From the IMG/VR virus record IMGVR_UViG_3300025655_000026, positions 1 through 64,000 of that record: DNA of 64,000 nucleotides; one strand, given 5' to 3'. Shown one piece after another: positions 1,674 to 47,677 of the stretch; the stretch's first letter is position 1, and each line of letters begins with the position of its first letter. Made by a program: the position numbers and the translations under genes. The notes beneath the pieces were generated by a model. It did not search any database and was not told the origin of the DNA. It saw only the letters and a list, made by a program, of their open reading frames with translations. The DNA is from a virus.

Positions 1674-2186
1674 TTGGCTGAAATATTTACTGCTAACGAC
1701 ATTTCTTTTAAGGAAATGAGTGAAGATGAAGCAGTAAAGACTTTTCAAAAAGATGGCTATTTTGATTATGTAAAAAGAGTCGTTAGATACAAAGCACTTC
1801 CTAATGAATCTGTTTGGGCGAGAAACCCCGCTACTATGTTTGTGGCTTTTAACAAAGAAACTCCTGTCGGAGTTATTGGGTTTTCAACTTATGGAAAATA
1901 TCTATTAGGTGCAGGAATTCATGTGCGAAAAGAATACCGTAATAGGGGTTTAACTCCTATTCTTATCAATGAAATGCTAAAACATAAAGGTGGCAAAAAA
2001 ATCCTCGTAAGTATAGCCAATAAAAATATTGTCAATTCTTATAGGAATGCAGGTTTTAAAGATATGGAGATTGGAAATCTACCTACTGAGATTAGAGAAG
2101 GAGCAGTTATTTCAAGAGAGGCTGGTTCGGAATTAGTTGAAAAATTTATGCTTCATGAAACAGGTTGGTTTGAAATTTTGAGGTGA
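1674..2186 (+). CDS. GNAT-family N-acetyltransferase
   Basis: About 170 residues, the usual size of a single GNAT domain. The central segment around residues 75-105 carries a beta-strand followed by 'VRKEYRNRGLTPILI', which matches the acetyl-CoA-binding motif A (R/Q-x-x-G-x-G/A) in shape, and a later 'NSYRNAGFKD' matches the C-terminal GNAT pattern. GNAT enzymes transfer an acetyl group from acetyl-CoA to an amine; the substrate here is unknown. The start is a TTG placed 4 nt after AGGTGA. It lies immediately upstream of the terminase, so it may modify a host or virion protein, but this is inference. Family assignment is fairly secure. Confidence 0.8.
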   Translation: MAEIFTANDISFKEMSEDEAVKTFQKDGYFDYVKRVVRYKALPNESVWARNPATMFVAFNKETPVGVIGFSTYGKYLLGAGIHVRKEYRNRGLTPILINEMLKHKGGKKILVSIANKNIVNSYRNAGFKDMEIGNLPTEIREGAVISREAGSELVEKFMLHETGWFEILR

Positions 2187-4975: not shown

Positions 4976-5395
4976 ATGCCAATTACTCATAAAAAAGATG
5001 GTTGGTATTGGGGCGGAAGAGGGCCATTTAAATCTAGAAAAAAAGCAGTTGAAGTTGCACAGGCCGCTTATGCTAGTGGCTATGTAAAGAAATCTTGGAA
5101 AAGTATTCTTAAGATTGAAAGTGAAGTTGATGGTAGAAAGGTTAGAACTTCGCCCGAAGAATCAATTGACTTTTTGACTTACAGGAGTTGGGCTTGGCAA
5201 TCTAAAAAAGCGAGAGAATCAGAAGGAATGACAGGCGGATTTAAAGACAAAGAACATTTAGAATTGATTACAACTCCAAAAGGAAAAGCACTTGGCTATG
5301 ATGTTAAAGGCGATGAACTCAAAAGATGGATTAGAACTTGGAATGCCGAGTTTGGTGAAAAACTAGGGGCAATATATCCAACAGGTGATGAATGA
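4976..5395 (+). CDS. Small phage-type protein with GWYWG...PF motif
   Basis: 139 residues. The N-terminus 'HKKDGWYWGGRGPFKSR' followed by 'AAYASGY' is a short aromatic module that I associate with head-region proteins of many tailed phages, where it occurs alone or fused to other domains; its function is not established. Residues about 40-46 read 'SWKSILK', a variant of the W-x-x-I-L-K motif repeated in several neighbours. The ATG begins two bases after the preceding stop. The stop (5393-5395) overlaps the next start. Position in the packaging/head cluster suggests a virion or assembly protein. Confidence 0.7.
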   Translation: MPITHKKDGWYWGGRGPFKSRKKAVEVAQAAYASGYVKKSWKSILKIESEVDGRKVRTSPEESIDFLTYRSWAWQSKKARESEGMTGGFKDKEHLELITTPKGKALGYDVKGDELKRWIRTWNAEFGEKLGAIYPTGDE

Positions 5396-5769
5396 TGTGG
5401 CAAGAAATTCTTAAGAAAGAAAAGGATGCTTGCTACTATAAAGTTAAATCAAGATATAAAGACTGGCCTAGTGCTTATGCTAGCGGGGCTTTAGTTCAAT
5501 GTCGTAAAGTCGGTGCAGATAATTGGGGAAATTCGGTTGAAAAAGGCGGAGATGATTTCGCAAGAGAAAAGAAAGAAGGACTTCATGGTTGGTTTTCAAG
5601 AGCAGGAGGAAGTGGTTCGGAAACAGGTTGGGTTTCTTGTCAATCTTGTGAAGATGATAAAGAAGGAACAAAACCTTGTGGAAGAACAGATGCTTCTAAA
5701 GGAACTAAACAAAGATGTAGGCCAACTTGTGCCGCCTGTAAAACATATAAAAGGAGGAAAGGAGAATGA
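5395..5769 (+). CDS. Cys-rich small protein, 'GLHGWFSR' family
   Basis: 124 residues. It starts with 'MWQEILKKEKD', one of the recurrent W-x-x-I-L-K N-termini of this genome. The central 'GLHGWFSRAGGSG' and the Cys-rich tail (WVSCQSC, KPCG, RCRPTCAACK) match a family of small virus-encoded zinc-binding proteins of unknown function, similar as I recall to the group catalogued as DUF5872. ATG at 5395 is preferred over the overlapping 5392 because GGTGA lies at 5384-5388. Its stop overlaps the next ATG by four bases (ATGA), so the two are probably translated together. No enzymatic function can be read from it. Confidence 0.75.
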   Translation: MWQEILKKEKDACYYKVKSRYKDWPSAYASGALVQCRKVGADNWGNSVEKGGDDFAREKKEGLHGWFSRAGGSGSETGWVSCQSCEDDKEGTKPCGRTDASKGTKQRCRPTCAACKTYKRRKGE

Positions 5770-6185
5770 GCGATTGGAAAGATATACTAAAAGCCCCACT
5801 ATTAACAGATGAAGAAGAAAAAGAAATTGCTGATTTGATGCGGTTTAGAAATATGACAAGAGAAGAAGCCGAAAGAAAAGTGAGAAAGGATGCTGGTAAA
5901 TTAGATTCTAAAACACCAGTAGGTAGATTTGTTAAAAGTAGTTGCGGAACAGAAAAAATGCATGGCGGTTGTGGTTGCGATGAATGCCGAGAAAAGACTA
6001 ACAAATCTTATTGTCCTCATTGTGATGGAAATGCACCAAAAAGCGAATGCGTTTGTGGAAAAATGGAAAAGAAATTGTTTGGTAATCAAAAGGTAATTGC
6101 GGCCAAAGCACCACCAAAGGATGAAATTACTGGTGCAGATTTCAAAGCCCTTCGTGGAGAAAAAAAGAAACTAATGAAAGAATAA
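5766..6185 (+). CDS. Cys-rich zinc-binding protein with N-terminal MSDWKDILK
   Basis: 139 residues. The first nine residues, 'MSDWKDILK', give the clearest copy of the shared head-region motif. A charged helical segment follows, then a cysteine cluster (SCGTEK...GGCGCDEC...YCPHCDG...CVCG) that could bind two zinc ions, and a basic C-terminus. Start is fixed by the ATGA overlap with the preceding gene and by the AGGAGG-like run upstream. It belongs to a run of four small tagged proteins between the terminase and portal. Function unknown; a packaged or assembly-associated protein is inferred. Confidence 0.75.
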   Translation: MSDWKDILKAPLLTDEEEKEIADLMRFRNMTREEAERKVRKDAGKLDSKTPVGRFVKSSCGTEKMHGGCGCDECREKTNKSYCPHCDGNAPKSECVCGKMEKKLFGNQKVIAAKAPPKDEITGADFKALRGEKKKLMKE

Positions 6186-6200
6186 CATTGAGTGATGAAT

Positions 6201-6488
6201 ATGGATTGGAAAGAAGTTCTAAAAAAAGATAAAGAAGATATGCGAGTAGGAACAGTATATCCATCCGATAGAGCAGGTAAAAAAATAATGATGCTAACCC
6301 ATGAAGGTAAGAAAATCCATGCTGGTGCTAAAGGCTATGGTAATTGGAAAGGTAAAGGAAAGAATCGTGGCGGTGGCACACATCATAATCCAAAACGCAG
6401 GGCTAATTTTAAAGCGAGACATAACTGCGACCAATGTAAAGGTAGAATTACAACTCCTAGATGTTTAGCCTGTAAAAAACTATGGTGA
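6201..6488 (+). CDS. Small basic zinc-ribbon protein with MDWKEVLK N-terminus
   Basis: About 95 residues, strongly basic and glycine-rich in the middle. It starts 'MDWKEVLKKDKED' and ends in 'FKARHNCDQCKG...RCLACKKLW', a CxxC...CxxC zinc ribbon. The 'RRxxFKARHNC' segment is reminiscent of small proteins found beside phage portal genes. I chose ATG 6201 because the GAGTGA at 6190-6195 is well spaced for it and it begins exactly with the MDWK motif; 6195 is also possible. The basic charge would suit DNA or RNA contact. Function unknown. Confidence 0.7.
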   Translation: MDWKEVLKKDKEDMRVGTVYPSDRAGKKIMMLTHEGKKIHAGAKGYGNWKGKGKNRGGGTHHNPKRRANFKARHNCDQCKGRITTPRCLACKKLW

Positions 6489-6542
6489 GAGTAAACAGTT
6501 AAAACCCATGCCCACTACAAATGATTTAGGGGAGTCTTGACT

Positions 6543-8195
6543 ATGGCCGAAGAAAACCGCAGATTCTCCATAACGAATCTATTTAGGAGAAAAACCCCTA
6601 CTCCTGCTGATAGACAAATTTACAGCATGGGAATTCAAGAGAGGCAAAACAATAACATAATGACTGCGCCAATTATTTATTCAATTGTTCAGCAATCAGT
6701 TATTGTAAGAACTTGTATTACTCAACTTAAGCAGGAAGTATTTCGTAGAGGCTATCTTTGGGAAAAGGCATACGAAGCCCGTTGTAGAGACTGCGGGAAA
6801 GAACATCAACGGCCTGTTCAAGAATGCGCCCGTTGTGAATCAACTCAATTAGATAAGCCCGACCCAAAGCAATTAGAATACGCTGAGAAGTTTATGGATG
6901 GCTATGTGAATAAAGCCGAACAATTGTTTATTGATGTGCTACAAGAACTTGAAGATGATTTAAACATCATGGATGATGCATACATTGTTCTCGTCAAAGA
7001 ATATTTTATTGATGGCAATGGTCAAATTAGAATGCACCGAATCAAAGAAGTGTTTAGAGGCGACCCCGTTACTATGATGATTTATTGTGATGATGAAGGC
7101 ATTCGTGGAACAAAGGGATTTACTTGTGTGAATCACCGTCAATTTATTTCTACTGAACCCCATGAAGTTTGTGAGATTTGTAATGGAAATCTTTTCCCTA
7201 TTCATTATGTAAATCGTGTCGGTGGCCAAGACCAATATTTCTTAGAAGGAGAAGTTCTTCATTTTAGCAAATATAATCCTAGTCGTCTTTACGGTCTTTC
7301 TCCAATTCTAACTCTCTATAATCTTGTCATGACTCTTATTGCTATGGAGAACTATGTCAATTCATCTTACACAAAGAGTAGAATGCCGAGAGGACTACTC
7401 GCAGTCCAAACTAGAAACATGGACTCAATGAGGAACTTTTGGAGAGCAACAAAAGAAAAGATGGAAGCCGACCCTCATTTTATTCCTGTTATGGGAATTG
7501 AAGCCGAGAATGGAAAGGGTGCGGTTGAATGGATTAAGTTCATGGATAGCCTCAAAGAAATGGATTATGTTTCTGTAAAGGATGATTTGCGAGATAGAAT
7601 TTCAGCATTCTATGGAGTAAGTAAAGTGTTTATGGCTGATAATACTACAAGCGGTGGATTGAATAATGAAGGTATGCAAATCCTAGTAACCAATAGAGCC
7701 GTTCAAAAAGCACAAACTGTTTACAACAATTATGTTTTCCCGTTCCTCATTAGGCAATTTGGAATTACTGATTGGAATTTGAAACTCCCACCAAGCGAAG
7801 AAGAAGATGAAATTGCCATACTTCGTAAGCGTGAAATTGAAGTTAATATTGCCGCATCAATTAAGAATCTTGGTTTTGAAATTGAAATGGATGAAGATGG
7901 TAACTTTACTTATAGTAAGCCCGAACCAAAAGAAGAGAAGCCTCCAATGGGTGAAGAAGGAAACAATGCAGAACTTGACCCTCTTGCTGGCTCTAATTTA
8001 GACCAAAGGGATTTAGATGAAATGCAAAGGAATTTTGCACAAGGCGGAGAACAACAATCAAAGCCACAAGAGAACCCGCCAGCCACAAGGAATAAAAGGA
8101 GAATGAGCGTAGGCCCAGATAAGAGATTAACTGGTTTACCCAAAGAAGCAGGAAACCAAAATGTAGATTCAAGAAGCGAAAGGAGAGTTGGATGA
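6543..8195 (+). CDS. Portal protein with inserted zinc-ribbon segments
   Basis: About 550 residues, the expected size for the dodecameric portal that forms the DNA entry ring of the prohead and binds the terminase. Recognisable portal features include 'TAPIIYSIVQQSVIVRTCI' near the N-terminus, the clip/wing region, 'LHFSKYNPSRLYGLSPI' and 'ISAFYGVSKVFM' with 'NNEGMQILVTNRAV'. Unusually it carries two cysteine clusters: CRDCGKEH...CARC at about residues 80-102 and CVNHR...CEIC at about 197-222. The C-terminal 100 residues are acidic then basic and likely disordered. ATG 6543 follows GGGGAG with good spacing. Stop overlaps the next ATG. Confidence 0.9.
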   Translation: MAEENRRFSITNLFRRKTPTPADRQIYSMGIQERQNNNIMTAPIIYSIVQQSVIVRTCITQLKQEVFRRGYLWEKAYEARCRDCGKEHQRPVQECARCESTQLDKPDPKQLEYAEKFMDGYVNKAEQLFIDVLQELEDDLNIMDDAYIVLVKEYFIDGNGQIRMHRIKEVFRGDPVTMMIYCDDEGIRGTKGFTCVNHRQFISTEPHEVCEICNGNLFPIHYVNRVGGQDQYFLEGEVLHFSKYNPSRLYGLSPILTLYNLVMTLIAMENYVNSSYTKSRMPRGLLAVQTRNMDSMRNFWRATKEKMEADPHFIPVMGIEAENGKGAVEWIKFMDSLKEMDYVSVKDDLRDRISAFYGVSKVFMADNTTSGGLNNEGMQILVTNRAVQKAQTVYNNYVFPFLIRQFGITDWNLKLPPSEEEDEIAILRKREIEVNIAASIKNLGFEIEMDEDGNFTYSKPEPKEEKPPMGEEGNNAELDPLAGSNLDQRDLDEMQRNFAQGGEQQSKPQENPPATRNKRRMSVGPDKRLTGLPKEAGNQNVDSRSERRVG

Positions 8196-8419
8196 TGACA
8201 GAAGATACACGACAAAAAGAAATTAGACTAAAGAAAGAGTTAGCACAACTTCGTGCAAAACATGCGAATGAAGATAGAGTGGTAAAACCAACTAGAGATT
8301 TTTCTATGGGAATTCCTGCTGATACTTCACACAAAGCAAAACTAAGTTCGGCAGATTCGCCCGATGTAATTTTACTTCCCAAACACCGAAGAGGCAATAA
8401 AGAAAACATTCCATATTGA
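8192..8419 (+). CDS. Small charged hypothetical protein after portal
   Basis: 75 residues, rich in Lys, Arg and Glu, with a predicted N-terminal helix ('LKKELAQLRAKHANED') and a polar tail. ATG 8192 overlaps the portal stop by four bases and an AGGAGAG lies upstream; ATG 8195 is equally possible. Its stop at 8417-8419 is part of the GAGGTGA used by the next gene. No family recognised. Translational coupling to the portal suggests a head-assembly role. Confidence 0.65.
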   Translation: MMTEDTRQKEIRLKKELAQLRAKHANEDRVVKPTRDFSMGIPADTSHKAKLSSADSPDVILLPKHRRGNKENIPY

Positions 8420-8429
8420 GGTGAAGTAA

Positions 8430-10487
8430 ATGAATTCTTCAAATGTGCTTAAAGCAAAAGGAGATAAAACCTTTAGCAGTTTTGATGAATTATATGCTTA
8501 CGAAGCACAAACAGACCCCAATTTGAAAGATAACTTTGCATCTAATGAATTAAAACTTGAGGGTCTAAAACAATATACTCTTTCTAACGAAGATAAAAAA
8601 CAAATAGATAATGCTAGAAAATTCAATAAGCAAATAGATGAATTAAATGATAGTCTAGGTGTTAAAAGAAAAAAAGGAACTGACTATAAAATTTATTCAA
8701 CTACGCCATCTTCTAAAAGTTTATTTCCATTTATTACAAATTCTTATTTATTTGTTGAGTTTTTAAATTTCCTTAACAGTTGTATGACAATGAGAGCGAA
8801 TGAGAAAATCGCTAATTACTTTTCATCTGGTATTTTAAACTACATTAAGATGGCTGAATATGAATCGCCAATTGAAGAAGATAAATATACTCAAGAGGAT
8901 ATAGATAAGGCAAAAGAATTAGAAGAAGAATTGTCTATGATTTGTGAAAAAGCACAAAATTTTGCCCTTAAAAAATATTCAAATATTAATGGATTTAAAG
9001 CAGTATCTTTGGCCTATGAAAAAATGTATAATAAAAAATATCTCACGGCAAAAGATAAGAGATTAAAGGGTTCTGCTATTAAAGATATTATTTATTATTT
9101 GAATACTGATTTAACTCCTAAAGAAGAAATAACTGGAATAATTACTATTATGAAAAAACATAAAATAGACATAGATAATAGAAATAAAATTCTAGAAGAT
9201 TTAGACGAAGCCAATAAAAAAGCATTGGAAGAAGGCAGATTAAAGGGAGAACTAACTCGTAAACTCCAAAGAGAACATAGAAATAAAGAGATGGAGTTAG
9301 CAAAAGAAACGGATTCAGTTAAAATAACAGAATACATGGATTCTCTACCTGAAGGAATTAAAGAAGAAGTTATTGAACAATATAAAGAAATAGTAATACC
9401 ACAGATTAAATCTCGCATTGAAGCAAAAGAAAATAAAGATACACCTTTTAATTCCACAGAAAAGAATGAATTAGAAAAAAGACTTGAAAATTACAAAAAA
9501 ATGCTAGTAGAAACTAAAAATAAATATGATTCCTTTATGAAAGAAAGAAATAAAGAATTGAAAACTATTGAAGATAAAATACAGAATGCAAAAAAAGTAT
9601 TTCAAGAGTGGAGTGAATCAACAGTTGGAAATAGAAAACCAAATGAATATAGTCTCAAAGACCAACAATTAGAAAAAAAATTAGCAGAGTTTAGAAAACA
9701 AATAGATGAAATTAATCAAAAAAATAAAAAAGAGAAAGAAAATTTGTTAGACAAAATAAAAATTACTAAAGAACAAATTAGTTCAACAGAAAATGCTTTA
9801 AAAGAAAAGGGAGATAGTGAGTCATCAATTGATGAATTACAACTTTTTTTGGATGAGTATAATTTTAATTATATGCATTTAGATATTTTACATAGGAAAT
9901 TTATGAATGATTTAGTGGATGAACAATTACAAGATTACACAGATGAAATCAATCAAAAATTTAAAGATATTAAAGAAAGTAAAAAGATGGAGTTTAATCG
10001 CATTGAGAGAGTCAAAGAACAAATTGATTTTTTAGTAGATAATGCAGAAGAAATCATACGAATAGCAAATCTAGTTGATTCAATTAATGCTAATAAAGGA
10101 GAATTATTTATTGAATCCAAAGAGGATGAAGAAATAGATAAGAATAAATTTATAAAACAAGTTAAAGAAGCAAAGGATGCCTACATTGAATCTGGAAATC
10201 ACATTGAAGATATTATAAAATTACTTTCTAAATTGGAAAAAGAATATGAAGAGGTTTCGGATTTCTTAGAAGAAATAACAGAAGATAGCGAATCCGAAGA
10301 AGCAAAAACAGATATTAATGAAATCATAGAAGATATAGATGAGGAAATAAATGATTCCTTAGTTAATAGAGATAGAATTTTTAGAGAAATAAATAGCAAA
10401 ACAAAAGACCTCAATGAAGAAATAGAAACATTAACTCAGTTGATAACAGAAACAAAAAAGATTGGATTTAAAAAATATAAGGAGTGA
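8430..10487 (+). CDS. Large coiled-coil protein, function unknown
   Basis: 685 residues, very rich in Lys, Glu, Asp and Asn, and more AT-rich than its neighbours. The first 200 residues look globular and helical with a hydrophobic patch ('KSLFPFITNSYLFVEFLNF'). The rest is almost continuous heptad-like coiled coil (about 270-670). No signal peptide or membrane segment is evident. GAGGTGA at 8418-8424 sets the ATG. It lies between portal and protease, where other viruses place scaffolding or internal head proteins, so an internal-core or scaffold role is plausible but unproven. Its N-terminus 'MNSSNVLKAKGD' contains only a weak echo of the local tag motif. Confidence 0.75.
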   Translation: MNSSNVLKAKGDKTFSSFDELYAYEAQTDPNLKDNFASNELKLEGLKQYTLSNEDKKQIDNARKFNKQIDELNDSLGVKRKKGTDYKIYSTTPSSKSLFPFITNSYLFVEFLNFLNSCMTMRANEKIANYFSSGILNYIKMAEYESPIEEDKYTQEDIDKAKELEEELSMICEKAQNFALKKYSNINGFKAVSLAYEKMYNKKYLTAKDKRLKGSAIKDIIYYLNTDLTPKEEITGIITIMKKHKIDIDNRNKILEDLDEANKKALEEGRLKGELTRKLQREHRNKEMELAKETDSVKITEYMDSLPEGIKEEVIEQYKEIVIPQIKSRIEAKENKDTPFNSTEKNELEKRLENYKKMLVETKNKYDSFMKERNKELKTIEDKIQNAKKVFQEWSESTVGNRKPNEYSLKDQQLEKKLAEFRKQIDEINQKNKKEKENLLDKIKITKEQISSTENALKEKGDSESSIDELQLFLDEYNFNYMHLDILHRKFMNDLVDEQLQDYTDEINQKFKDIKESKKMEFNRIERVKEQIDFLVDNAEEIIRIANLVDSINANKGELFIESKEDEEIDKNKFIKQVKEAKDAYIESGNHIEDIIKLLSKLEKEYEEVSDFLEEITEDSESEEAKTDINEIIEDIDEEINDSLVNRDRIFREINSKTKDLNEEIETLTQLITETKKIGFKKYKE

Positions 10488-10494
10488 AATAAAC

Positions 10495-10845
10495 ATGGAT
10501 TGGATGAAAGTTCTAAAAGAAGAAATTGTTGAGACTGATGCTGATATTTTATCTTCTCTTGATGATAAACAAAGAAAGCGACTTAAGAAAACACTTCAAT
10601 CAGCCGAACCGACTGAATTTTTCGGTCAAGATTTTACAAAACTCGGAGAACTTATTGAAATTATGAGCGAACTAAATTTAGTTAAAGCCGATAAGAAACT
10701 CAACAAGAAGATGAAATCAATGGATGAACGGAATATTGATATTGTAGCCACCGCTACCAAACTTCGTAAGGAGTATGAATTGTTGTTTAGGCAACTCTAT
10801 GATATGGTCTATCCTAAGAGAATGGAGGATGAAGTAAATGAGTGA
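10495..10845 (+). CDS. Small helical protein with MDWMKVLK N-terminus
   Basis: 116 residues, all-helical by composition, charged. The start ATG at 10495 is supported by GGAGTGA at 10481-10487 and gives 'MDWMKVLKEEIVE', matching the recurrent motif; earlier in-frame starts lie within the preceding gene. The stop overlaps the next gene by eight bases. No known domain. Its position between a coiled-coil protein, another tagged small protein and the ligase points to the head-assembly set. Confidence 0.7.
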   Translation: MDWMKVLKEEIVETDADILSSLDDKQRKRLKKTLQSAEPTEFFGQDFTKLGELIEIMSELNLVKADKKLNKKMKSMDERNIDIVATATKLRKEYELLFRQLYDMVYPKRMEDEVNE

Positions 10846-11083
10846 AGATAATTCAATTAATGAAGACCTGTTAGCCATCGTTAAGGCATTGGCTGATAAG
10901 GTTGAGAGTCTAGAAAAAACAATTTACGCTAAAGATAGTCTTTTGATGAAGGCTGGCTTAGTCGTTACCCAAAGTCCAACTCCAAGCATGAATAGAACTA
11001 TTGGTGGTTCTTCTACCATTAGCGGAGATATTTCTAAAATGGATTGGAGTGATATTCATAAGATGATTAAGGAGTATGAGTAA
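10838..11083 (+). CDS. Small protein with C-terminal MDWSDIHK motif
   Basis: 81 residues. An N-terminal helix with heptad pattern ('LLAIVKALADKVESLEKTI') is followed by a Ser/Thr/Gly-rich linker and the C-terminal 'KMDWSDIHKMIKEYE'. The same kind of C-terminal ending closes the protease-scaffold protein ('SMDWADVHRLVGGNY'). This shared end suggests that both bind the same partner in the prohead. Overlaps its neighbours by a few bases on both sides, consistent with coupled translation. Confidence 0.7.
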   Translation: MSEDNSINEDLLAIVKALADKVESLEKTIYAKDSLLMKAGLVVTQSPTPSMNRTIGGSSTISGDISKMDWSDIHKMIKEYE

Positions 11084-11084
11084 A

Positions 11085-11318
11085 ATGCCTGAAAGAGTAA
11101 CTAAAGAAGAAAGAATGATTAGTCTAGCCATTGAAAAGGCTCGCCTAGCAAAAGAAATGCTACAAGAGGAATCTATTCATGAAAGACTTCCTGTTGAAGA
11201 TGATAGCCAAGAAGTGAAAATCACAAAGCCAAAGAATCTACGAGCAGAAAAAATTCAAAATCAAACTGCTAAAGATGAAGGCTACGGATTGGCTGGAGAA
11301 GTTACAGACAATTCGTGA
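11085..11318 (+). CDS. Small charged hypothetical protein
   Basis: About 77 residues, highly charged, with a helical N-terminal half and a polar C-terminal half. ATG 11085 lies ten bases after AGGAG (11070-11074); the ATG at 11076 is too close to that site. The stop TGA at 11316-11318 overlaps the GTG used by the ligase gene. No recognisable family. Confidence 0.6.
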   Translation: MPERVTKEERMISLAIEKARLAKEMLQEESIHERLPVEDDSQEVKITKPKNLRAEKIQNQTAKDEGYGLAGEVTDNS

Positions 11319-13831
11319 TTTCCATGAAACTCTCTAGCATTGAGAAAGATAAGCAACCTTCGGTTGAAATTCTTCGCCTATTTGAAAAGGTTAGAGTCGC
11401 CTATCTTTCTGCTAATGAAGACCCAAAAGAATATGGTAATCGCTGGAGAAGCGCAGTTAAGTTAATAGAAGAATCATATAATGAATATGATTCTGCTGGA
11501 AAAGAAATGAAAAACTTCGTTGAAGAAAAAGACTTAGAGGATAAGGAAGTAAATAATCCTCAAAGCCAAACTGCTAGAAGAGTATATCAAGGAATAAAGC
11601 AACTAAGATATGCTTCGGAATTAGTAGATGACCCATTTGCTAGAAGATTTAAAGAAAATGTATTAGAAGAACTCTTAGGAAATCCCGAAAGCATGATTAA
11701 ATTCGTTCACTATGCTTTGAGAAGTGATTCTAAATCTTTGCCTAAAGAAGTATGGGCGATAAAAGATATGGGAGAAGACACTTTAACTGATGGACTACAA
11801 GGGCTTGATTTGCAGGAAGAAGATATTGCTCTTTACATCATTGAGCATTATGGTGACGGTAAAGATTCAAAGAAAGTAGAAAAAGAAGTTAAACAGGCTT
11901 TAGATATGTTGGAACTTCTTTATTTCTCAAGATATGATAAAGAAGATTATTCAGCATTAAAAGATATTGAAAAGGCTGAAAAATCAGAAAGTGATTTTAT
12001 AATTCCAAATAAACCAATGTATCGCATTTTTGATATTGATGATATTAATGAACTTAAAGGCTTTAGTGGTAATTGGGTCGTTCAAGAAAAATACGATGGT
12101 ATGAGAGTTCAACTCCATAAGATTGATAATAACATCAAAGTCTTTTCTTACAATGAAAAAGATATTACTGATAAGTGTGAAGATATTGTGAAAGAACTTC
12201 GTGCAAAGAAGTTCGGAGATTGTATTCTTGATGCTGAACTTATTTTATTTGATGGAGATGAAGCCCTACATAGAGCAGATACTATTGCTCATGTTTTCAA
12301 AAATAAATATCCCGATGCTAAACTAAGATGTTCAGTATTTGATATTCTAAGACACGAAGAACAGAATCTAGCAGATGAAGAACTAGAAAAGAGAATTACT
12401 ATTTTGTTCAATAATTATTCGGGTGACTCTACTGATGCTTTGGCTTTCCCATCTAAGAAAGATACTAGAATGGCTGACAACTTAAAAGATATTGAAGAGT
12501 ATGCTAAAGAGATTATGGAAATGCCTACGGCAGAAGGAGTTGTCATTAAAGATGCAACCTCTACTTATTATATCGGCACAAAGAAAAATCCAAAGTGGAT
12601 TAAGTGGAAGAAGTTTGTAGACCTAGATTTGATTGTCCTTGATAAAAAGGAAACAAAATCCAATTTATTCTCTTATAGTCTAGGGGCAGGGCCAGTAAAT
12701 GAGGAAAATAAGTTCACTAAAGAAATTGATGGAATCCTATACTTAGATGTGGGTAAGGCACTCAATACTTCAATTGAAGTTGATGTAGGTGACATTGTAA
12801 GAGTTAAGGTAGATGAAGTAAAACCTAGTGAGGATAGATTTACTGTTTATTCAGCAAAGGTCATTGAAGTTCCCGAAGTAGAATATCCCGATAAGATTGT
12901 TACTTTGGAAATGTTGGCTCAAGATACAAAGAAGTCGCTTAACTATAATGTAGAAGCACTTGAAAAAGGAATTAGAATTACTGACCATATTCACGGAGAG
13001 GCCACCATTATTATGAAAGGTGAATTAGATGGTTTTACTATCTATGGCTTTGAACAAAATAATCTAATGTCTAAAAATGCAATTGCTGATTTGAATGTTT
13101 GGAAAGAGGCGGCAGTTGAAATCATGAAAACTAAAAATAGTGAGATGTTTAATGCTATATTCCAATTCCTTAAAGAAAATGGTGAAAAAGATTTAGCAGA
13201 CATTGATGAATTCTTAAAGAAACAAATTCCTTCTTTATACGAAGATACTGTTGGCTCGGATAAAAAAGAACTTGTAAAGTGGCTTAAAGTTAGAAAAGAT
13301 GATGGGATTCAATTTGTAAATAAAAAATTCCAAGCCGACCCAACAAAAATTCTTTCGGAAGATGAAGATGAATTGAATGGTGAAATTCTAAAACAATACA
13401 AAACTCCCGAAGAATATAGAAAAGGCAACTTTAAGATTTATGACCGTGAAGATGGTAACTTGAATGTTGTTATGTCTTTAGGCGATGAAAAAATCAATTG
13501 GTTTATTGATATTGAAGATAGTGTAGATATTTTTGATTTGTTTGGAAAAGCAGGTAAGTTTCCAGCGAGAGTTGCAGATACTATACAAAGAGATAAGGTC
13601 ATTGATTCGGGAGAAGTGGAATTAGGTATTCAAAGAAATGGCTATCATGAATATTTCTTAGAAGGAAATAAATTCCAAACTAAGTTTCATGTTAGATACC
13701 TTCCCGTTAAAGATAAGAAAATGTGGTTAGCATGGACTGGATATAAGCAAAAACCTGCCAAAATAGAAGGGGATGAGGGTTTATGGAATATAAGAGAAGA
13801 TAAATATGCAAATGCCGAAATACCAAAATAA
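11315..13831 (+). CDS. ATP-dependent DNA ligase in the head operon, with extended C-terminus
   Basis: 838 residues. An N-terminal helical domain of about 230 residues precedes a nucleotidyltransferase core: motif I 'EKYDGMR' with the AMP-accepting lysine, motif III-like 'SVFDILR', motif IV 'EGVVIKD' and motif V 'PKWIKWKK', then an OB-fold with 'DVGDIVRVKVDEV'. These seal nicks by the ligase-adenylate route. After the OB-fold are about 300 extra residues; the last 130 ('NWFIDIEDS...FHVRYLPV...MWLAWTGYK') loosely resemble the 3'-phosphoesterase-type beta-barrel of LigD, a weak call. GTG 11315 overlaps the previous stop; ATG 11324 is an alternative. A second, unrelated-looking ligase sits in the replication block at 56.7-58.2 kb, so this one may serve packaged DNA. 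Confidence 0.85.
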   Translation: MISMKLSSIEKDKQPSVEILRLFEKVRVAYLSANEDPKEYGNRWRSAVKLIEESYNEYDSAGKEMKNFVEEKDLEDKEVNNPQSQTARRVYQGIKQLRYASELVDDPFARRFKENVLEELLGNPESMIKFVHYALRSDSKSLPKEVWAIKDMGEDTLTDGLQGLDLQEEDIALYIIEHYGDGKDSKKVEKEVKQALDMLELLYFSRYDKEDYSALKDIEKAEKSESDFIIPNKPMYRIFDIDDINELKGFSGNWVVQEKYDGMRVQLHKIDNNIKVFSYNEKDITDKCEDIVKELRAKKFGDCILDAELILFDGDEALHRADTIAHVFKNKYPDAKLRCSVFDILRHEEQNLADEELEKRITILFNNYSGDSTDALAFPSKKDTRMADNLKDIEEYAKEIMEMPTAEGVVIKDATSTYYIGTKKNPKWIKWKKFVDLDLIVLDKKETKSNLFSYSLGAGPVNEENKFTKEIDGILYLDVGKALNTSIEVDVGDIVRVKVDEVKPSEDRFTVYSAKVIEVPEVEYPDKIVTLEMLAQDTKKSLNYNVEALEKGIRITDHIHGEATIIMKGELDGFTIYGFEQNNLMSKNAIADLNVWKEAAVEIMKTKNSEMFNAIFQFLKENGEKDLADIDEFLKKQIPSLYEDTVGSDKKELVKWLKVRKDDGIQFVNKKFQADPTKILSEDEDELNGEILKQYKTPEEYRKGNFKIYDREDGNLNVVMSLGDEKINWFIDIEDSVDIFDLFGKAGKFPARVADTIQRDKVIDSGEVELGIQRNGYHEYFLEGNKFQTKFHVRYLPVKDKKMWLAWTGYKQKPAKIEGDEGLWNIREDKYANAEIPK

Positions 13832-13877
13832 CCGTGTAACTTAAATAGTAGATTGTTGAACGAGGAGGATGAAAGCC

Positions 13878-15032
13878 ATGACGCTTATGCTAAAGGCTGA
13901 GAGAAATGATGAATTTCAAATCCTGAAAAGCGATGAACTAATGATTGGAGGATATGCGAGTATTGAAATCGTAGACAAACAAAACGATTTGATTACACTA
14001 AAAGCACTTAACGAAGCAGTTCAAAAATTTATGGAGAAAGATAGATTTAGAAATGTAATGACAAATCACTCAAATGTTCAAGTTGGAGAAGTAGTAAAAT
14101 CATACAGAGATAAAACGGGGAGGATATGGAAAACAGAAGTAGACGATGTGGGCTTCTTTGTTGTAATTAAACTCCGTGATGATATTGAAAAAGCAAAAGA
14201 AATAAATAGAGGTATTCGCAAAGGGTCGTTAAGGTCGTTTAGCATAGGAGGACAAGCGTTACAGAAGGTGAAAAAATCTCATCCCGAATTAGGTGAATAT
14301 AACGAGATTAGTAAACTAGAATTACACGAAGTAACTATATGCGAAAAAGGAATTAACCCCGAAGCGAAGTTTGACATATTAAAACAAGAAAAAGGAAGTG
14401 AAACAATGAGCAAAATGGAAAAAGCATTGGCAGAACTAGACGCACTTATGGCAGAGGTAAACACTTTGCGTAAGGAAGAAATGAACGAAGAAATGGAAAG
14501 CATGGCTATGCCCGAAGAAGAGGAAGAGTCTATGGGATATTCCGATGAGGAAGCAAAGTCTCTTGTTCCAACAGAAGACGGTGCTGGAGTTGAAATCGGT
14601 GAGCCAGCAGACCGTGTTGTGATTGACAACGGAAACCCAACAGGTAGCGATATGCCAGTTGTTAAGGCTTTTAACAACGATGAAGTTTCAACTCTTAACC
14701 TTACAAATGGAAACATTGAGAAGGCTTACGAGGCTTTCCGAGCAGAACAACTTGAGAAGTTGGCTTTCTCACAATTGCAGAAGTCTTTTGAGGCTCGCTT
14801 TGAAAAAGAACTTTCAAGCCGAGAAGATATGCTCGCAAAGCAAAACTATGATGCGGCAACTGAAATTGCTTCTCTTAAAGAAGAATTTAGTGAACTCCGC
14901 AAATCTTTGACTGCTGAAAAAGATGCCATTGTAAAGGCTCAAGAAGCAGTTCGTGCAAACATTCCATCAATGGATGACATTGCCTCAATGGATTGGGCTG
15001 ATGTTCACCGCTTGGTTGGAGGAAATTATTGA
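13878..15032 (+). CDS. Prohead protease fused to scaffold-like domain
   Basis: About 384 residues. The N-terminal 165 residues form an XkdF/HK97-type serine protease: 'GYASIEIVDKQNDLI', then 'TNHSNVQVGEV' with the catalytic His, and 'GSLRSFSIGG' with the nucleophile Ser, ending in 'ELHEVTICEKGINPEA'. The remainder is acidic, helical scaffold-like sequence with a long coiled coil, ending 'SMDWADVHRLVGGNY'. In HK97-like viruses such a protein fills the procapsid, then cleaves itself and the capsid. ATG 13878 follows GAGGAGGA at 13863-13869; the ATG at 13869 overlaps that site. The stop is part of GAGGTGAT before the capsid gene. A TTAAATAG at 13841-13848 could be an archaeal promoter element. 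Confidence 0.9.
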   Translation: MTLMLKAERNDEFQILKSDELMIGGYASIEIVDKQNDLITLKALNEAVQKFMEKDRFRNVMTNHSNVQVGEVVKSYRDKTGRIWKTEVDDVGFFVVIKLRDDIEKAKEINRGIRKGSLRSFSIGGQALQKVKKSHPELGEYNEISKLELHEVTICEKGINPEAKFDILKQEKGSETMSKMEKALAELDALMAEVNTLRKEEMNEEMESMAMPEEEEESMGYSDEEAKSLVPTEDGAGVEIGEPADRVVIDNGNPTGSDMPVVKAFNNDEVSTLNLTNGNIEKAYEAFRAEQLEKLAFSQLQKSFEARFEKELSSREDMLAKQNYDAATEIASLKEEFSELRKSLTAEKDAIVKAQEAVRANIPSMDDIASMDWADVHRLVGGNY

Positions 15033-15041
15033 GGTGATATT

Positions 15042-16343
15042 ATGGGATACATTAACACAATTGCAGATTTAGAAGCACAAAGTTACGGACTGAACATGGC
15101 AGGATATGCTGGAAACGATTTGTTGAAAGCGGCTGGCGGACTAAGTGGGCTACATACTCCCCACGATGGAGCGCAAACCGCACCAACAGGTTATTTGGCT
15201 AACCTTTACAATCAAGTTTATGGCCAAAAAGTTTGGTCAATGTTGAACCGAGAATGCAACGCACTTTCAGTTATCTCAAAGCGACCATACACTTCAAGCG
15301 GTTGGAGAGTTCTAAGTGAGCGACCTGCTGGTGGTTCAAGCGCACAACTTTCAGTTGGAACATCGGGTGCTATTGGTGCTTCCGCAACTTCGGCTGATTT
15401 GATTGGTGGTGTGCCAGAAAATCAAAGCATTGGTAGCGGTGGTCTTCAAGCCATTGCACCAACATATGCTCAACTATACCTTTCTCCAAAGACTGTTGCT
15501 CATCAATTTGAGTTCAGCGAAATTGCTTTGGAAATGGCAAAAATTGATGATGGTATTGGTGACATTAGAGCGCAAATGAGAGAAGACATGGGTAAGCATC
15601 ACGCTGAAATGCAAAACAAGATGTTGGTTATGCCTTTGGAATTCTACGGTGAACCTACCGCTTTGTCTACTCTAGAAGATAACTACACTTCACTTTACAA
15701 AGTTGTTACTTCCACCGCAGAAATTGACATTGCTGATACAGACAACCTTTACTCCGAAGCACAAGGCGATTTGATTAACAACATTTACGGCTCAAACAGA
15801 ACAAGTGCTTCTTTCCTTGATGCTACTGTTGATTACGGTGACGGATATGTTGCGGCAGATGTGCGAAGTCTTACACTTACTCGTCTTAACGCAATGATTC
15901 GTGATTTGAGAATTGAAGGCGGTTCACCAAAGGTTATTTTGACTGGTTACGATACTATTCAAGCATTGGCTGACCTTCTTCAAGCACAAGAGCGATTTAT
16001 GGATAGAAAAGAAATTGTTCCAACTGTGAACGGTGTTCGTGGTGTAAAGGGTCAAGAAGTTGGATTCCGTGTTTCAACTTACTACGATATTCCTTTGATT
16101 CCAGTCAAAGACATGGCTTCAACCACACATTCATCTGTTACTGGTATTTCCGATATGTTGTTCCTTGATACTGACCATTTGTGGCTTTCAGTCATGAAGC
16201 CAACTCAATATCTTGAGGATGGTATTACCAACGGAAACCCATTCGGTGTTGGTCGTCTAGGTAATACTGGACTTTACCGAACCATTGGTGAAGTCGGTTG
16301 TTCATTCTTTAAGGGTCAAGGCAAGATTACGAACCTTCAATGA
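15042..16343 (+). CDS. Major capsid protein, HK97-fold type
   Basis: 433 residues. Placement directly after the protease-scaffold, the length, and alternating strand-rich and helical segments ('QFEFSEIALEMAKIDDG', 'IEGGSPKVILTGYDTIQAL', 'IPLIPVKDMAS', 'DTDHLWLSVMKPTQY') fit an HK97-type capsid subunit. Codon use here is less AT-rich than in the surrounding unknown genes, as is common for highly expressed capsid genes. The start is fixed by GAGGTGAT at 15031-15038. The first 60 residues are low in charge and helical and may be trimmed by the protease during maturation (inference). Confidence 0.88.
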   Translation: MGYINTIADLEAQSYGLNMAGYAGNDLLKAAGGLSGLHTPHDGAQTAPTGYLANLYNQVYGQKVWSMLNRECNALSVISKRPYTSSGWRVLSERPAGGSSAQLSVGTSGAIGASATSADLIGGVPENQSIGSGGLQAIAPTYAQLYLSPKTVAHQFEFSEIALEMAKIDDGIGDIRAQMREDMGKHHAEMQNKMLVMPLEFYGEPTALSTLEDNYTSLYKVVTSTAEIDIADTDNLYSEAQGDLINNIYGSNRTSASFLDATVDYGDGYVAADVRSLTLTRLNAMIRDLRIEGGSPKVILTGYDTIQALADLLQAQERFMDRKEIVPTVNGVRGVKGQEVGFRVSTYYDIPLIPVKDMASTTHSSVTGISDMLFLDTDHLWLSVMKPTQYLEDGITNGNPFGVGRLGNTGLYRTIGEVGCSFFKGQGKITNLQ

Positions 16344-16353
16344 GGTGATTTAA

Positions 16354-16620
16354 GTGGCTTTTTCATATACAGTTACTTCAAACACCGTGTTTGGTAATAA
16401 GCGAATTGTCTTTGGAAGTTTCACCAATGGCGTAAGTGATACTGGCGGAGAAGTTGCTACTGGTCTAAAAACAGTAGATTTCTTCATTCCTATCGGTAGT
16501 AGCCTACCTCTAACGGCTCAAATCAATGAAACTTTCCCTCTTTCTAGCGGGAATGTTACGATTGTTACTGACCCTGATTTAGACGGATATTGGATGGCTA
16601 TTGGCGACGGTTTGGTTTGA
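16354..16620 (+). CDS. Small beta-rich virion protein after capsid gene
   Basis: 88 residues, mostly beta, with 'VFGNKRIVFGSFT' near the start and 'DTGGEVATGLKTVDFF' in the middle. Small proteins with this pattern are common next to phage capsid genes and may be decoration or structural proteins; the exact role is not known. GTG start, preceded by TGAGGTGATTT, in which the capsid stop is embedded. Likely abundant virion component. Confidence 0.7.
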   Translation: MAFSYTVTSNTVFGNKRIVFGSFTNGVSDTGGEVATGLKTVDFFIPIGSSLPLTAQINETFPLSSGNVTIVTDPDLDGYWMAIGDGLV

Positions 16621-16629
16621 GGGATTTTT

Positions 16630-16971
16630 TTGGCTTACATGGAAATCTCTGAATCATCACCATTAAGAAGATTCAAGTGCAATATTCGCTTTACAGAAGT
16701 TTCTGTGGTGAAGGGGGAAAGAGTAGAAGTTCCTAATGATTGGGCTATTTCTGCTTTGAGTCATAACGACCTTCTTTTCTCCTTCACCGCAGAAGATGAA
16801 GCATTCTTCAAGGGATTGAACGAGGCTCGCATTGCTTTAATTAACAGACAAGTGGAAGAAGAAATTCTTTCCCCAAAGGATGCGATTGCTTTATTCATTC
16901 CAAAGAAGTCTAAGCCAATTTCTGTTCCTAAAGCAACACCTGCTAAGAAGTCTAAGGCAAAGAAAGAGTAA
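16630..16971 (+). CDS. Small virion-region protein with Lys-rich tail
   Basis: 113 residues. The first 90 are a mixed alpha/beta domain ('RFKCNIRFTEVSVVKGERVEVP'), and the last 20 form a Pro/Ala/Lys-rich basic tail (PKATPAKKSKAKKE) resembling histone-tail composition. TTG start at 16630 after GAGGGA. A basic flexible tail could touch DNA or the acidic capsid interior. No family recognised. Confidence 0.6.
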   Translation: MAYMEISESSPLRRFKCNIRFTEVSVVKGERVEVPNDWAISALSHNDLLFSFTAEDEAFFKGLNEARIALINRQVEEEILSPKDAIALFIPKKSKPISVPKATPAKKSKAKKE

Positions 16972-17042
16972 TCTTTCAGCCATAGATTTTGGAATTGAAT
17001 TAAATAGGTGAACACATAAGGACATAAACAGGGGAACTTAGT

Positions 17043-17336
17043 ATGGGGTTTGCTGGTGGTTGTAGAACAAGTGGAGTATTGACTGCGAGTGCAGTTGTCA
17101 CAAAGGGTAGAGCATTATTGGTTAGTGTTCATGCTTGTGAAGTTGGCGGAACTACACCCGTTACAATTAAAATCTACGATGGCACTTCATCAAGTGGAAA
17201 AGAAATTGCTAGGCTAAATATTGCCGCAGGTCAAACAATTGAGTTTGATATGCATGGTGTTATTTGCGACAATGGAATTTACTTTGAAGAAGTTGCGGCA
17301 GGTGGAGATTCAGCAGTCTCTATTGAGTTTGCTTGA
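17043..17336 (+). CDS. Small beta-sandwich-like virion protein
   Basis: 97 residues, Gly/Ala/Val-rich, composed of predicted beta strands ('VTIKIYDGTSSSGKEIARL', 'GQTIEFDMHGVICDNGIYFEEV'). The pattern is typical of small jelly-roll or beta-sandwich decoration proteins of phages. A gap of about 70 bases upstream contains GAATTAAATAGG (16996-17007), similar to the TTAAATAG before the protease gene and possibly an archaeal TATA-type element. A GGGGAA lies upstream of the ATG. Confidence 0.65.
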   Translation: MGFAGGCRTSGVLTASAVVTKGRALLVSVHACEVGGTTPVTIKIYDGTSSSGKEIARLNIAAGQTIEFDMHGVICDNGIYFEEVAAGGDSAVSIEFA

Positions 17337-17345
17337 GGCGTTATT

Positions 17346-17750
17346 ATGGCGGCATTGAATCACGATACTAGACTAGTTATGACTATTCTTTTTGTTGGAA
17401 CACTTAGCGGAGCGAATGTATTCTTTTATGCTCAATACGGAACAGGATTTCCTTATGGGCCGATGACGCATTCTGTTCTCTTTGGGCTAGGAACAATTGG
17501 TTCTATTATGGTCATGAAAGCCGTCTTTGATTTGGCTCTCAATGATAAAATTGAACTATGGCTTCTTGATAGAAAGATTTCAGCATATTGGGCTAGAAAG
17601 GCTAGAGATGCTGAACAGCGAACTAAATTAGTAGAAAGCGCAAAGCAATACTCTAACAACTTCGGTTCTTCTCCATTCCAACAACCTCAAATGCTAAGTC
17701 AAGAAGATTCCAATTCAGTTGGAAATGAATTTTTGATTGGGCTACAATGA
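17346..17750 (+). CDS. Small membrane protein with two transmembrane segments
   Basis: 134 residues. Two hydrophobic helices are visible, about residues 10-30 ('MTILFVGTLSGANVFFYA') and 42-65 ('SVLFGLGTIGSIMVMKAVF'), followed by a charged helix and a Gln/Ser-rich soluble tail. It begins the cassette of two membrane proteins and a small GTPase. The short spacing between the genes implies joint expression. In tailed viruses membrane proteins in the late region often act in lysis or egress, but nothing here resembles a known holin strongly enough to name it. Confidence 0.7.
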   Translation: MAALNHDTRLVMTILFVGTLSGANVFFYAQYGTGFPYGPMTHSVLFGLGTIGSIMVMKAVFDLALNDKIELWLLDRKISAYWARKARDAEQRTKLVESAKQYSNNFGSSPFQQPQMLSQEDSNSVGNEFLIGLQ

Positions 17751-17759
17751 GGGTTATGA

Positions 17760-17975
17760 ATGCTAGGCGACATACTAGGTATGACCGATACTGACTTCAT
17801 GTATAACCAAAGCAGAGCGCATTCTGCTGACATTTTCTTTTTGAAAATGAGAGCATGGTTTTGGGGCAGTTGTGCTACATTGTCGGCTTTATTGATTGGT
17901 AACATCATGGGAGTATTTGATTTAAATATCATGGGTTGGTTGATTGAGTCTGTAAAGTCCTTTTGGGGGCATTAG
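17760..17975 (+). CDS. Small single-span membrane protein
   Basis: 71 residues with one clear hydrophobic segment around residues 33-53 ('WFWGSCATLSALLIGNIMGVF') and a second, weaker amphipathic stretch at the end ('IMGWLIESVKSFWGH'). Starts with ATG nine bases after the previous stop and a GAGGGTT. Its stop lies two bases before the GTG start of the GTPase gene. Partner of the flanking membrane protein and GTPase by position; function unknown. Confidence 0.65.
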   Translation: MLGDILGMTDTDFMYNQSRAHSADIFFLKMRAWFWGSCATLSALLIGNIMGVFDLNIMGWLIESVKSFWGH

Positions 17976-17976
17976 G

Positions 17977-18639
17977 GTGTCGCTACTAACAGGCTTTGCC
18001 GTTGTAATAACAGAAGCGGTCTTCTCTGTTTACAAAAAACTACACGCAATTAACTTCGGAGTCTATGGGGCGACAATGGTTGGCAAAACTACTTTGGCTC
18101 ATCAACTTACTACGAGAGGAGAAGTTCAACAAATAAACGAAAGAACGGTTGGGCTACATAGAGCATCAAGAAAGTCAATAAAAATTGATGGCCAAACAAA
18201 TACCATTAAGAGTGCTGATTTAGGAGGAGAAGCAATCTATTGGAAAGAATGGGTTAAAGATATGCAATTAAGAAAGCCAAAATATATTATTTTCATGATA
18301 GACCATAGGCACTTAGATAATTCTTCAAATCTTGACCATCAAGTAGCATGGAAGTTTCTTGTAGATACTGTTTGCTCATCAATGTGGCCTACTGGAAAGA
18401 AAAAGAAAGAAGAAGACTATCCTTTAGCCATAGGTATTTGGGCTAATAAATATGATATTTGGGGAAAGAAATATGATAACGATGAGCCTATTGAAAAACA
18501 TGAAATATTTGAACCGTTTAAGTATGGAATGAGGAAGTTGAACGAGAAGGGAATACCCTGTTTCAAATATATTGTTTCAGCAAAATCTGACCCCGAAATG
18601 GTGTATAGAGGAATTATTACAATGATAAAGGATTACTGA
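17977..18639 (+). CDS. Arf/Ras-like small GTPase with N-terminal hydrophobic helix
   Basis: 220 residues. All five G-box motifs are readable: G1 'GATMVGKT' (31-38), G2 candidate Thr57 in 'ERTVGL', G3 'DLGGE' (81-85, Arf-like where Ras has DTAGQ), G4 'NKYD' (157-160) and G5 'SAK' near the C-terminus. The last residue of DLGGE is Glu instead of the usual Gln, so intrinsic hydrolysis may be altered. Residues 3-18 are hydrophobic and could anchor or insert in a membrane. It follows two small membrane proteins with almost no spacing. Small GTPases switch partner binding with GTP or GDP; the target here is unknown. GTG start at 17977. Confidence 0.85.
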   Translation: MSLLTGFAVVITEAVFSVYKKLHAINFGVYGATMVGKTTLAHQLTTRGEVQQINERTVGLHRASRKSIKIDGQTNTIKSADLGGEAIYWKEWVKDMQLRKPKYIIFMIDHRHLDNSSNLDHQVAWKFLVDTVCSSMWPTGKKKKEEDYPLAIGIWANKYDIWGKKYDNDEPIEKHEIFEPFKYGMRKLNEKGIPCFKYIVSAKSDPEMVYRGIITMIKDY

Positions 18640-18644
18640 TTATT

Positions 18645-19172
18645 ATGTGGAAAGATATTCTTAAGGCTCTTGAAAGAATTGCTTTGAGTGATAAGGATAA
18701 AATAAAAATAGAAAAAGTTCCACAAGAAGTTTCATTCAAACCCAATGGACTATGGTATTCATTTAGTTTAGGAAGTGGCTGGATGAGAGGAAATATGTTA
18801 GATTATGGCTGGTTAGAATCATATCAATATATGTTATACTTAGATACTTCCGAATTAAACATTTTACAAATTAAAAACTTAGAAGATGCTAATGCTTTTT
18901 ATAGCAGATGGAATCGTGGAAAACGCAGAAACCAATGGGATAGTGTTGCTTTTTACTATGATGGAGTAGAATTATTAAACTATAATAATTGGGTTGAAAA
19001 ATATGGTAGCGATAATCCTGTTATGGAAGAATTTGGTGGATGGGATATGGATTCGGGATGTATTTGGAATACTCAAAATTTAAAAGTTAAAAAAGTCAAA
19101 CCTATTGAAGAACGCCACTACAAAAGACAACATAAAGAACAATTGAGTTTATATGATGATATAGAGGAGTGA
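18645..19172 (+). CDS. WDxxSGCIW-family protein with MWKDILK N-terminus
   Basis: 175 residues. It begins 'MWKDILKALERI', the recurrent tag, then a globular domain with 'NGLWYSFSLGSGW', 'YLDTSELNILQI' and 'GWDMDSGCIWN'. The GLW-S...WD-x-x-SGCIW pattern recurs in uncharacterised bacterial and phage proteins that I associate tentatively with an ADP-ribosyltransferase-like fold; no catalytic residue can be assigned from reading alone. A tagged, possibly packaged enzyme would parallel T4 Alt, but this is speculation. Lies five bases after the GTPase stop. Confidence 0.65.
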   Translation: MWKDILKALERIALSDKDKIKIEKVPQEVSFKPNGLWYSFSLGSGWMRGNMLDYGWLESYQYMLYLDTSELNILQIKNLEDANAFYSRWNRGKRRNQWDSVAFYYDGVELLNYNNWVEKYGSDNPVMEEFGGWDMDSGCIWNTQNLKVKKVKPIEERHYKRQHKEQLSLYDDIEE

Positions 19173-46301: not shown

Positions 46302-46521
46302 TTATTTTCACTCTCCTATGTGTTCCACATCTGTTTCCATCAAAGTCAGCCCAACTCTTACATCTTTCATTTGTAGAACCCGATATGGCTCTACATCTAA
46401 ATTCATCGGGTGTAGGCTTTCTTCTACATACTGAACAGATTGGAGTATAATTTGGTTTGCTAGACTTATGCGGCCTAGCATTAAATTTACCTTCGCATAA
46501 TATACAAAATACTGTTGCCAT
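46294..46521 (-). CDS. Small multi-zinc-finger protein
   Basis: 75 residues with seven cysteines and a histidine: 'CILCEG', 'CSVCRRKP', 'RCRAI', 'RCKSW', 'RCGTH'. This can form one zinc ribbon plus a 'CxAxxxxxxxxCxxxxxxxxxRCxxH' finger, the latter common in small phage proteins. ATG 46521 overlaps the PolB-C stop (ATGA). Probably a nucleic acid-binding accessory protein. Confidence 0.7.
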   Translation of the reverse strand: MATVFCILCEGKFNARPHKSSKPNYTPICSVCRRKPTPDEFRCRAISGSTNERCKSWADFDGNRCGTHRRVKINE

Positions 46522-47429: not shown

Positions 47430-47677
47430 CACATCACATCTGTAAAAATAATTCCTATTGGCTCATTCTTTAATTCAGCAATGGATTCTTGACATTCTCT
47501 AACTGCTAATCCAATTTTGTCTTCTTTATTCATATCAACATGAATAGCATTTATATCTTCTAAAACATCATCTAAATCATTTCTGATTTCTTTCAAAGAA
47601 TTCAGTAGATTGTTGATTGTTTTCTGCAATAATCCAATTGTTATAGTTTGTTCTTTAATTATTTCTTCTAAATTCAT
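47429..47677 (-). CDS. Small coiled-coil protein between polymerase halves
   Basis: 82 residues with an uninterrupted heptad-like helix ('LLQKTINNLLNSLKEIRNDLDDVLEDI') and a short hydrophobic C-terminus. Its stop overlaps the PolB-C start (TGATG) and its ATG overlaps the preceding gene's stop. Coupling raises the chance that it helps join the polymerase halves, but this is only positional. Confidence 0.65.
   Translation of the reverse strand: MNLEEIIKEQTITIGLLQKTINNLLNSLKEIRNDLDDVLEDINAIHVDMNKEDKIGLAVRECQESIAELKNEPIGIIFTDVM

Follow-up and report, generated by a model that had tools for sequence, protein, structure and literature searches.

Short terminal peptides that bring proteins into a capsid have been described in several systems. 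In bacteriophage T4, the internal proteins IPI-III and Alt carry a short N-terminal capsid targeting sequence (CTS) that directs them to the head, and the bodies of these proteins vary between related phages (PMC3012670, PMC9026906). In phage P1, an N-terminal stretch of DarB suffices to bring a reporter into the head, with no consensus among Dar proteins (PMC9024508), and cargo enters the HK97-fold shell of encapsulins by way of targeting peptides that are short and usually C-terminal, in some cases N-terminal (PMC8346489). Here we describe a six-residue tag on the ends of many late proteins encoded in the window (the first 64 kb of the 77.5-kb virus record IMGVR_UViG_3300025655_000026 of IMG/VR, which starts near the terminase and is shorter than its relatives) and in related viruses. 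On the basis of its distribution and sequence, this tag is probably a capsid cargo-targeting peptide for late proteins. No earlier report of it was found in the literature searched.

Pfam and PHROG searches of the window identified a family B DNA polymerase (PolB) in two pieces, ATP-dependent ligases, an S78 prohead protease, a portal, a terminase and a cpn60 chaperonin. From the gene list published for magroviruses, which are assigned to Marine Group II archaea (PMC10160649), PolB, DNA ligase, terminase, portal, major capsid protein (MCP) and prohead serine protease are all present in this virus. Its predicted gene content thus matches the magroviruses, while the host assignment is that of the cited paper.

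The first-pass annotation of the window had proposed a shared motif on head-region proteins, and its five N-terminal, two C-terminal and one internal sites are all present (Table 1), along with a ninth carrier overlooked there, a GNAT acetyltransferase whose C-terminus reads GWFEILR directly before the stop codon. Matches were counted with a strict pattern, W-x-[DE]-[IVL]-[LIV]-K, and a loose pattern, W..[IVLM][LIVMHF][KR], with a loose match scored as N-terminal when the tryptophan lay within 25 residues of that end, as C-terminal when within 20, and otherwise as located elsewhere. In the window, the strict pattern gave four matches only, all among the named sites, and the loose pattern gave 10 in 20,825 amino acids: the nine carriers and one internal site, WLSVMK, in the MCP, which is taken to be coincidence. 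The loose pattern had zero matches in the replication module of the window (40.8 kb onward).

In order to extend these counts, 77 related MCP loci and 12 near-complete genomes were sampled, with open reading frames (ORFs) called mechanically, so that start codons are approximate. The 77 loci yielded 99 N-terminal and 125 C-terminal matches, where shuffling gave means of 2.5 and 2.3, and 359 permuted patterns gave medians of 3 N-terminal and 0 C-terminal matches; the single permuted pattern that equalled the tag at N-termini was a swap of its two hydrophobic classes. On the late strand of the 12 genomes, 179 N-terminal and 36 C-terminal tags were found in 756 ORFs (2.4 and 1.6 after shuffling), whereas the opposite, replication strand carried 3 and 0 in 692 ORFs (2.9 each after shuffling). 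Because these hit counts include orthologues, which the family counts below deal with, Fisher values for the enrichment are not to be read literally. Each genome encodes 8 to 26 tagged proteins, with the record of the window lowest. No N-terminal tag was found in 352 ORFs from lambda, a stretch of P-SSM2, the T4 head region, HVTV-1, two archaeal virus records and four unrelated contigs. An equal rate of the motif in replication genes or randomised sets, which the first-pass annotation had named as a result that would count against it, was therefore not seen in either sample, and the search of protein ends in related viral genomes that it had suggested gave a strong excess at both termini.

The tags occupy the head genes as well as a variable block upstream of the terminase. 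Tagged ORFs make up 54% of the late ORFs lying over 9 kb upstream of the MCP gene and 45% of those in the 5.5 kb immediately before it; the proportion is 8% just downstream, and the tail region holds a single tagged ORF out of 156. Among the viral matches listed for the exact DNA pattern encoding MSW[KEQ]DILK, nearly all lie in magrovirus-like contigs rich in tags, and across 84,980 prokaryote genomes/species the same pattern gave 11 isolated matches in unrelated organisms, none titled Marine Group II. The same MCP, at 52-72% identity, is held by 26 of 30 tag-bearing records, the other four being pieces of 29-45 kb, and it was found in none of six control records without tag arrays. The window MCP is about 25% identical to those of HVTV-1 and HCTV (E down to 6e-21), and in the annotated viruses with the nearest related capsids (HVTV-1, vir335 and vir519) no tag was found at protein termini. 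As judged from these records, the tag is confined to one capsid lineage. In one tag-bearing record (G029:C1, 30945-32348, the record of locus L206), the MCP match is split into two adjoining pieces, 57% and 72% identical to the query, that share one open frame; an insertion or recombination may explain this.

The tag has the consensus [STND]-W-x-[DEN]-[IV]-[LI]-K. Counting from the tryptophan, position -1 is S, T, N or D in 116 of 155 tags (background 0.25), those with the start methionine there being left out, position +2 is D, E, N or S in 145 of 173 (background 0.27), +3 is I or V, +4 is L or I, and +5 is K in 169 of 173; no conservation was found from +6 onward in the late-strand tags of the 12 genomes. 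In the classic N-capping box of a helix, S, T, N or D is paired with D or E three residues further on. As residues of this kind surround the tryptophan, the tag is expected to form a short amphipathic helix with a capped N-terminus, and in structure models the helix begins exactly at the tryptophan in both the protease-scaffold tail and the GNAT tail. The GNAT model (predicted local distance difference test, pLDDT, 87; PDB GNAT matches at E=3e-6) places the tag in a separate terminal helix, residues 165-169. The earlier suggestion of a short helix-type motif is supported. All six leucine codons occur at +4, which indicates selection on the peptide, with the DNA not conserved.

The majority of tags are N-terminal, and very C-terminal examples end in WQEVIRA, WKKILRGD, WREILKGL or WQDILRW immediately before the stop codon. 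GNAT homologues likewise terminate in WMGVLKWN, WMEVLKWN, WFMLLKKR, WKKILRGD or WESVLRR. In some the tag abuts the domain, in some a long linker precedes it, and others have it between GNAT and a second domain. A tRNA nucleotidyltransferase carries the tag at both ends. The internal SWKSILK of the gene at 4976 fits the linker placement seen in the GNAT homologues.

With the tag removed, the 218 carriers of the 12 genomes fell into 110 BLAST families and the 982 carriers of all loci into 388 families, including 270 singletons; these are upper estimates, as single linkage may split diverged short relatives. Alignments of family representatives (80 and 83) had MxWxxILK as their sole common feature. 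This agrees with the earlier claim that the carriers are otherwise unrelated and did not arise by gene duplication. Recognisable carriers include GNAT, tRNA nucleotidyltransferase, a PAP2-type phosphatase, pentapeptide repeats, DUF6321, DUF5754 and the S78 protease. Weak matches to S-adenosylmethionine lyase, the HsdM N-terminal domain and a lambda Ren-like protein hint at anti-restriction roles for some carriers, as for T4 internal proteins. Apparent tag loss in homologues was considered and rejected, as many seemingly untagged ones hold relaxed variants (WQDILQ, WFEELK, WGDIHNL) or are mis-started or fused ORFs. The basic PSAYASG-type domain of the protein at 5392-5769, whose homologues show other tagged N-termini and architectures, recurs in loci L110, L142, L152, L162 and L187, recombined into many differently built tagged proteins, which suggests domain shuffling inside the cargo pool. 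Homologues of the protein at 6192-6488 open with MDWFDLLK, MTWFDVCK or MSWQEILK. Relatives of the protein at 10495-10845 carry MSWQSILK, MTWEDMLI or the variant MTWDYYGEGEEFILK; most of the near ones open with an expanded form, MTWDYYxxGxEFILK, rather than MxWxxILK.

The C-terminal sites of the head cluster offer a candidate for what the tag may imitate. In herpesvirus protease-scaffold and phage P22 scaffold proteins, the scaffold tails bind the capsid protein. The window encodes a protease-scaffold (Peptidase_S78, Pfam E=5.8e-9; PHROG head maturation protease, E=3.2e-16) in which a conserved protease domain is followed by a variable, acidic linker, then by a long predicted helix or coiled-coil, and finally by the C-terminal tail MDWSDIHKMVGG. 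Its acidic linker, predicted coiled-coil and conserved C-terminal helix resemble those scaffolds, but here many non-scaffold proteins bear a similar motif. All 57 sequences compared have W376 and H380, and the consensus of the tail is M-[DES]-W-x-[DE]-I-[HN]-x-[ML]-[VA]. The AlphaFold model is poor overall (pLDDT 52), with a helix from W376 at a pLDDT of about 74, and its best PDB match, T4 gp21, is not significant (E=0.16). A head-cluster protein of about 80 residues has an N-terminal coiled stretch, a variable linker and a C-terminal tag, the same kind of tail as the scaffold; in 29 aligned relatives (26-68% identity) W70 and I73 are invariant. Relatives with 42-47% identity still have a related motif in the tail, in which H is replaced by N or D, and in the deepest ones, whose MCP is about 54% identical, the tails read MSWDEINELV and MDWKDIDELV. 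The first-pass annotation had counted the protease-scaffold among the tag carriers; a related motif does stand at its conserved C-terminus, but it is distinguishable from the cargo tag.

Taken together, these patterns suggest that the tag brings a wide range of unrelated late proteins into the prohead of these marine archaeal tailed viruses as it assembles, probably through mimicry of the helix at the C-terminus of the protease-scaffold. While the shell is being built, tagged proteins would come to lie with the scaffold against the inner surface of the capsid, or in the scaffold core; they would then stay inside the capsid and would probably be delivered with the genome. The binding partner, virion entry, delivery and cargo function are points that we infer. 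The targeting to the prohead proposed in the first-pass annotation agrees with the restriction to the late strand, the position in the head and variable late block, the near-absence from tail genes and the single capsid lineage. Removal of the tag by the viral protease just after the motif, for which it had pointed to T4 as a parallel, gained no support: within the 35 residues after the tag no short motif was convincingly enriched, with the T4-like [LI]xE at 142 versus 151 of 316 families, and no residue is conserved from +6. T4-type removal is therefore unsupported and was rejected as a candidate.

Several observations weigh against the proposed targeting by scaffold mimicry. Scaffold and cargo have M-x-W-x-[DE]-[IV] in common but differ at +4 (H, N or D versus L or I), and in the deepest clade the cargo tags stay WxDILK while the scaffold has IN or ID, so the tag and the scaffold tail may bind different sites. 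Since the two motifs can be told apart (IH/IN versus IL-K), we infer a single shared binding site rather than observe it, and the difference at +4 leaves mimicry of the scaffold tail as the best available idea, short of demonstration. To this are added the missing cleavage signal, the fact that most cargo has no recognisable function, and the fact that, in contrast to T4 internal proteins, the cargo is not generally basic. In the 12 genomes, late ORFs with a tag lean slightly towards the basic side, but the median net charge at the family level is near zero, and the idea of cargo made up generally of basic DNA-binding proteins was rejected.

The differences between the scaffold and cargo motifs at +4 to +7, and the indifference of the cargo motif to the change of the scaffold in the deep clade, also favour another route, in which the tag enters the head through the portal, the 80-residue protein or another core protein, and the likeness to the scaffold tail is partial convergence. 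The binding of the T4 CTS to core proteins (PMC9026906) points the same way, but the common core M-x-W-x-[DE]-[IV], its location at the end of the protein in cargo and scaffold, and the existence of C-terminal cargo tags speak against convergence, and we regard this route as rather unlikely. Docking to some other viral or host factor, such as the virus-encoded chaperonin, a membrane or an assembly site, would make the tag a signal for folding or localisation instead of packaging. The virus does encode cpn60, and the late-strand restriction alone would suit a localisation signal. Tail proteins, however, are likewise late and in need of folding and lack the tag almost entirely, the protease-scaffold and the 80-residue protein end in a related motif, and the tag tracks the capsid lineage, so docking of this kind appears improbable.

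The position of most tags directly after the start codon, with an A/G-rich ribosome-site consensus upstream, might be expected of an element acting in translation or at the DNA level, such as a leader cassette or recombination site. We give this very little credence, as tags also occur at C-termini and in linkers, the synonymous codons vary freely and the reading frame is constant; the placement rules out a translation leader and the codons a DNA cassette. The motif is only six residues long, and a single-linkage count can split diverged short proteins, so that chance matches or diverged duplicates come into question as well. Against chance stand the roughly 70-fold excess over shuffles and the zero count at N-termini in other viruses, and against common ancestry the absence of any conserved column beyond the tag and the distinct families involved (GNAT, tRNA nucleotidyltransferase, PAP2, S78 protease), which together make either origin barely credible.

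Cargo targeting, as preferred here, can be set beside the known systems. By analogy, the tag would work like the T4 CTS, the DarB stretch and the encapsulin peptides, without being a member of the T4 type, for which likeness of sequence and an adjacent protease site were lacking. As in T4, one short terminal peptide is common to unrelated, variable late proteins and a prohead protease (Peptidase_S78) is encoded. Here, in contrast, the sequence is unrelated, there is no conserved protease site after the tag, the tag stands at either end and in linkers, carriers number 8-26 per genome versus a handful in T4, a related motif ends the scaffold, and the lineage is one of archaeal viruses. In the T4 head region no such tag was found at either terminus, the ip genes lying outside the stretch examined. 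Unlike the Dar proteins, the carriers have an obvious consensus across hundreds of families. Encapsulins differ in being cellular compartments with one or few cargo types per shell and a peptide of the SDGSLGIGSLKRS type, from which the consensus here differs.

Table 1. Tag carriers and the major capsid protein in the window.
Feature	Coordinates	Strand	Tag and supporting matches
GNAT acetyltransferase	1674..2186	+	C-terminal WFEILR before the stop codon, 2166-2183; Pfam Acetyltransf_1 E=3.4e-7
Two-part protein (MPITHKKDGWYWG... domain, then unknown domain)	4976..5395	+	SWKSILK in linker, 5093-5113; first-domain homologues in relatives
Basic PSAYASG-type domain and Cys-rich tail	5392..5769	+	N-terminal MWQEILK, 5395-5415; phrog_727 E=1.2e-18
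Cys-rich protein	5766..6185	+	N-terminal MSDWKDILK, 5766-5792
Small basic protein	6192..6488	+	MDWKEVLK, 6201-6224; likely start 6201
Conserved head-cluster protein	10495..10845	+	N-terminal MDWMKVLK, 10495-10518
Head-cluster protein of ~80 residues	10838..11083	+	C-terminal MDWSDIHKMI, 11039-11068
Prohead protease-scaffold fusion	13869..15032	+	C-terminal MDWADVHRLV, 14988-15017; Peptidase_S78
Major capsid protein (proposed container)	15042..16343	+	Internal loose-pattern match WLSVMK, residue 381; SU10_MCP weak
Protein of unknown function	18645..19172	+	N-terminal MWKDILK, 18645-18665; phrog_8582 E=8.7e-8; family with 6 tagged members

Other genes of the window were observed alongside the carriers. 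Two ATP-dependent DNA ligases are encoded (11315-13831 and 56668-58197), of which the large one, of 838 residues, lies within the head cluster adjoining the protease-scaffold and has the same place in eight deeper relatives examined. The two pieces of PolB (46521-47432 and 48565-50238) have other genes between them. Just downstream of the capsid gene, a small GTPase-like protein (17977-18639; weak Pfam matches to Roc/Ras/SRPRB) adjoins two small, probably membrane-spanning proteins. At the junction of the structural and replication modules, positions 39876-40721 encode an HMG-CoA-lyase-like enzyme (Pfam HMGL-like, E=2.7e-22), an unusual auxiliary metabolic gene for a virus.

In its fullest form, to which we give slightly less than even weight, the proposal is that about a quarter of the late genes of these abundant marine archaeal viruses might constitute a packaged arsenal of 10-25 protein species per virion, loaded by a peptide that copies the capsid-binding tail of the scaffold and injected to disarm the host. 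If the tag does act in this manner, any gene could be turned into virion cargo by six residues at either end, and capsid-targeting tags would have arisen independently in archaeal viruses. As a portable peptide, it would also offer a way to load proteins into an archaeal capsid of the HK97 fold. For viruses known from metagenomes, as these are, the tag would serve as a reading key by which hundreds of families without known function could be recognised by sequence alone as probable cargo of the virion.

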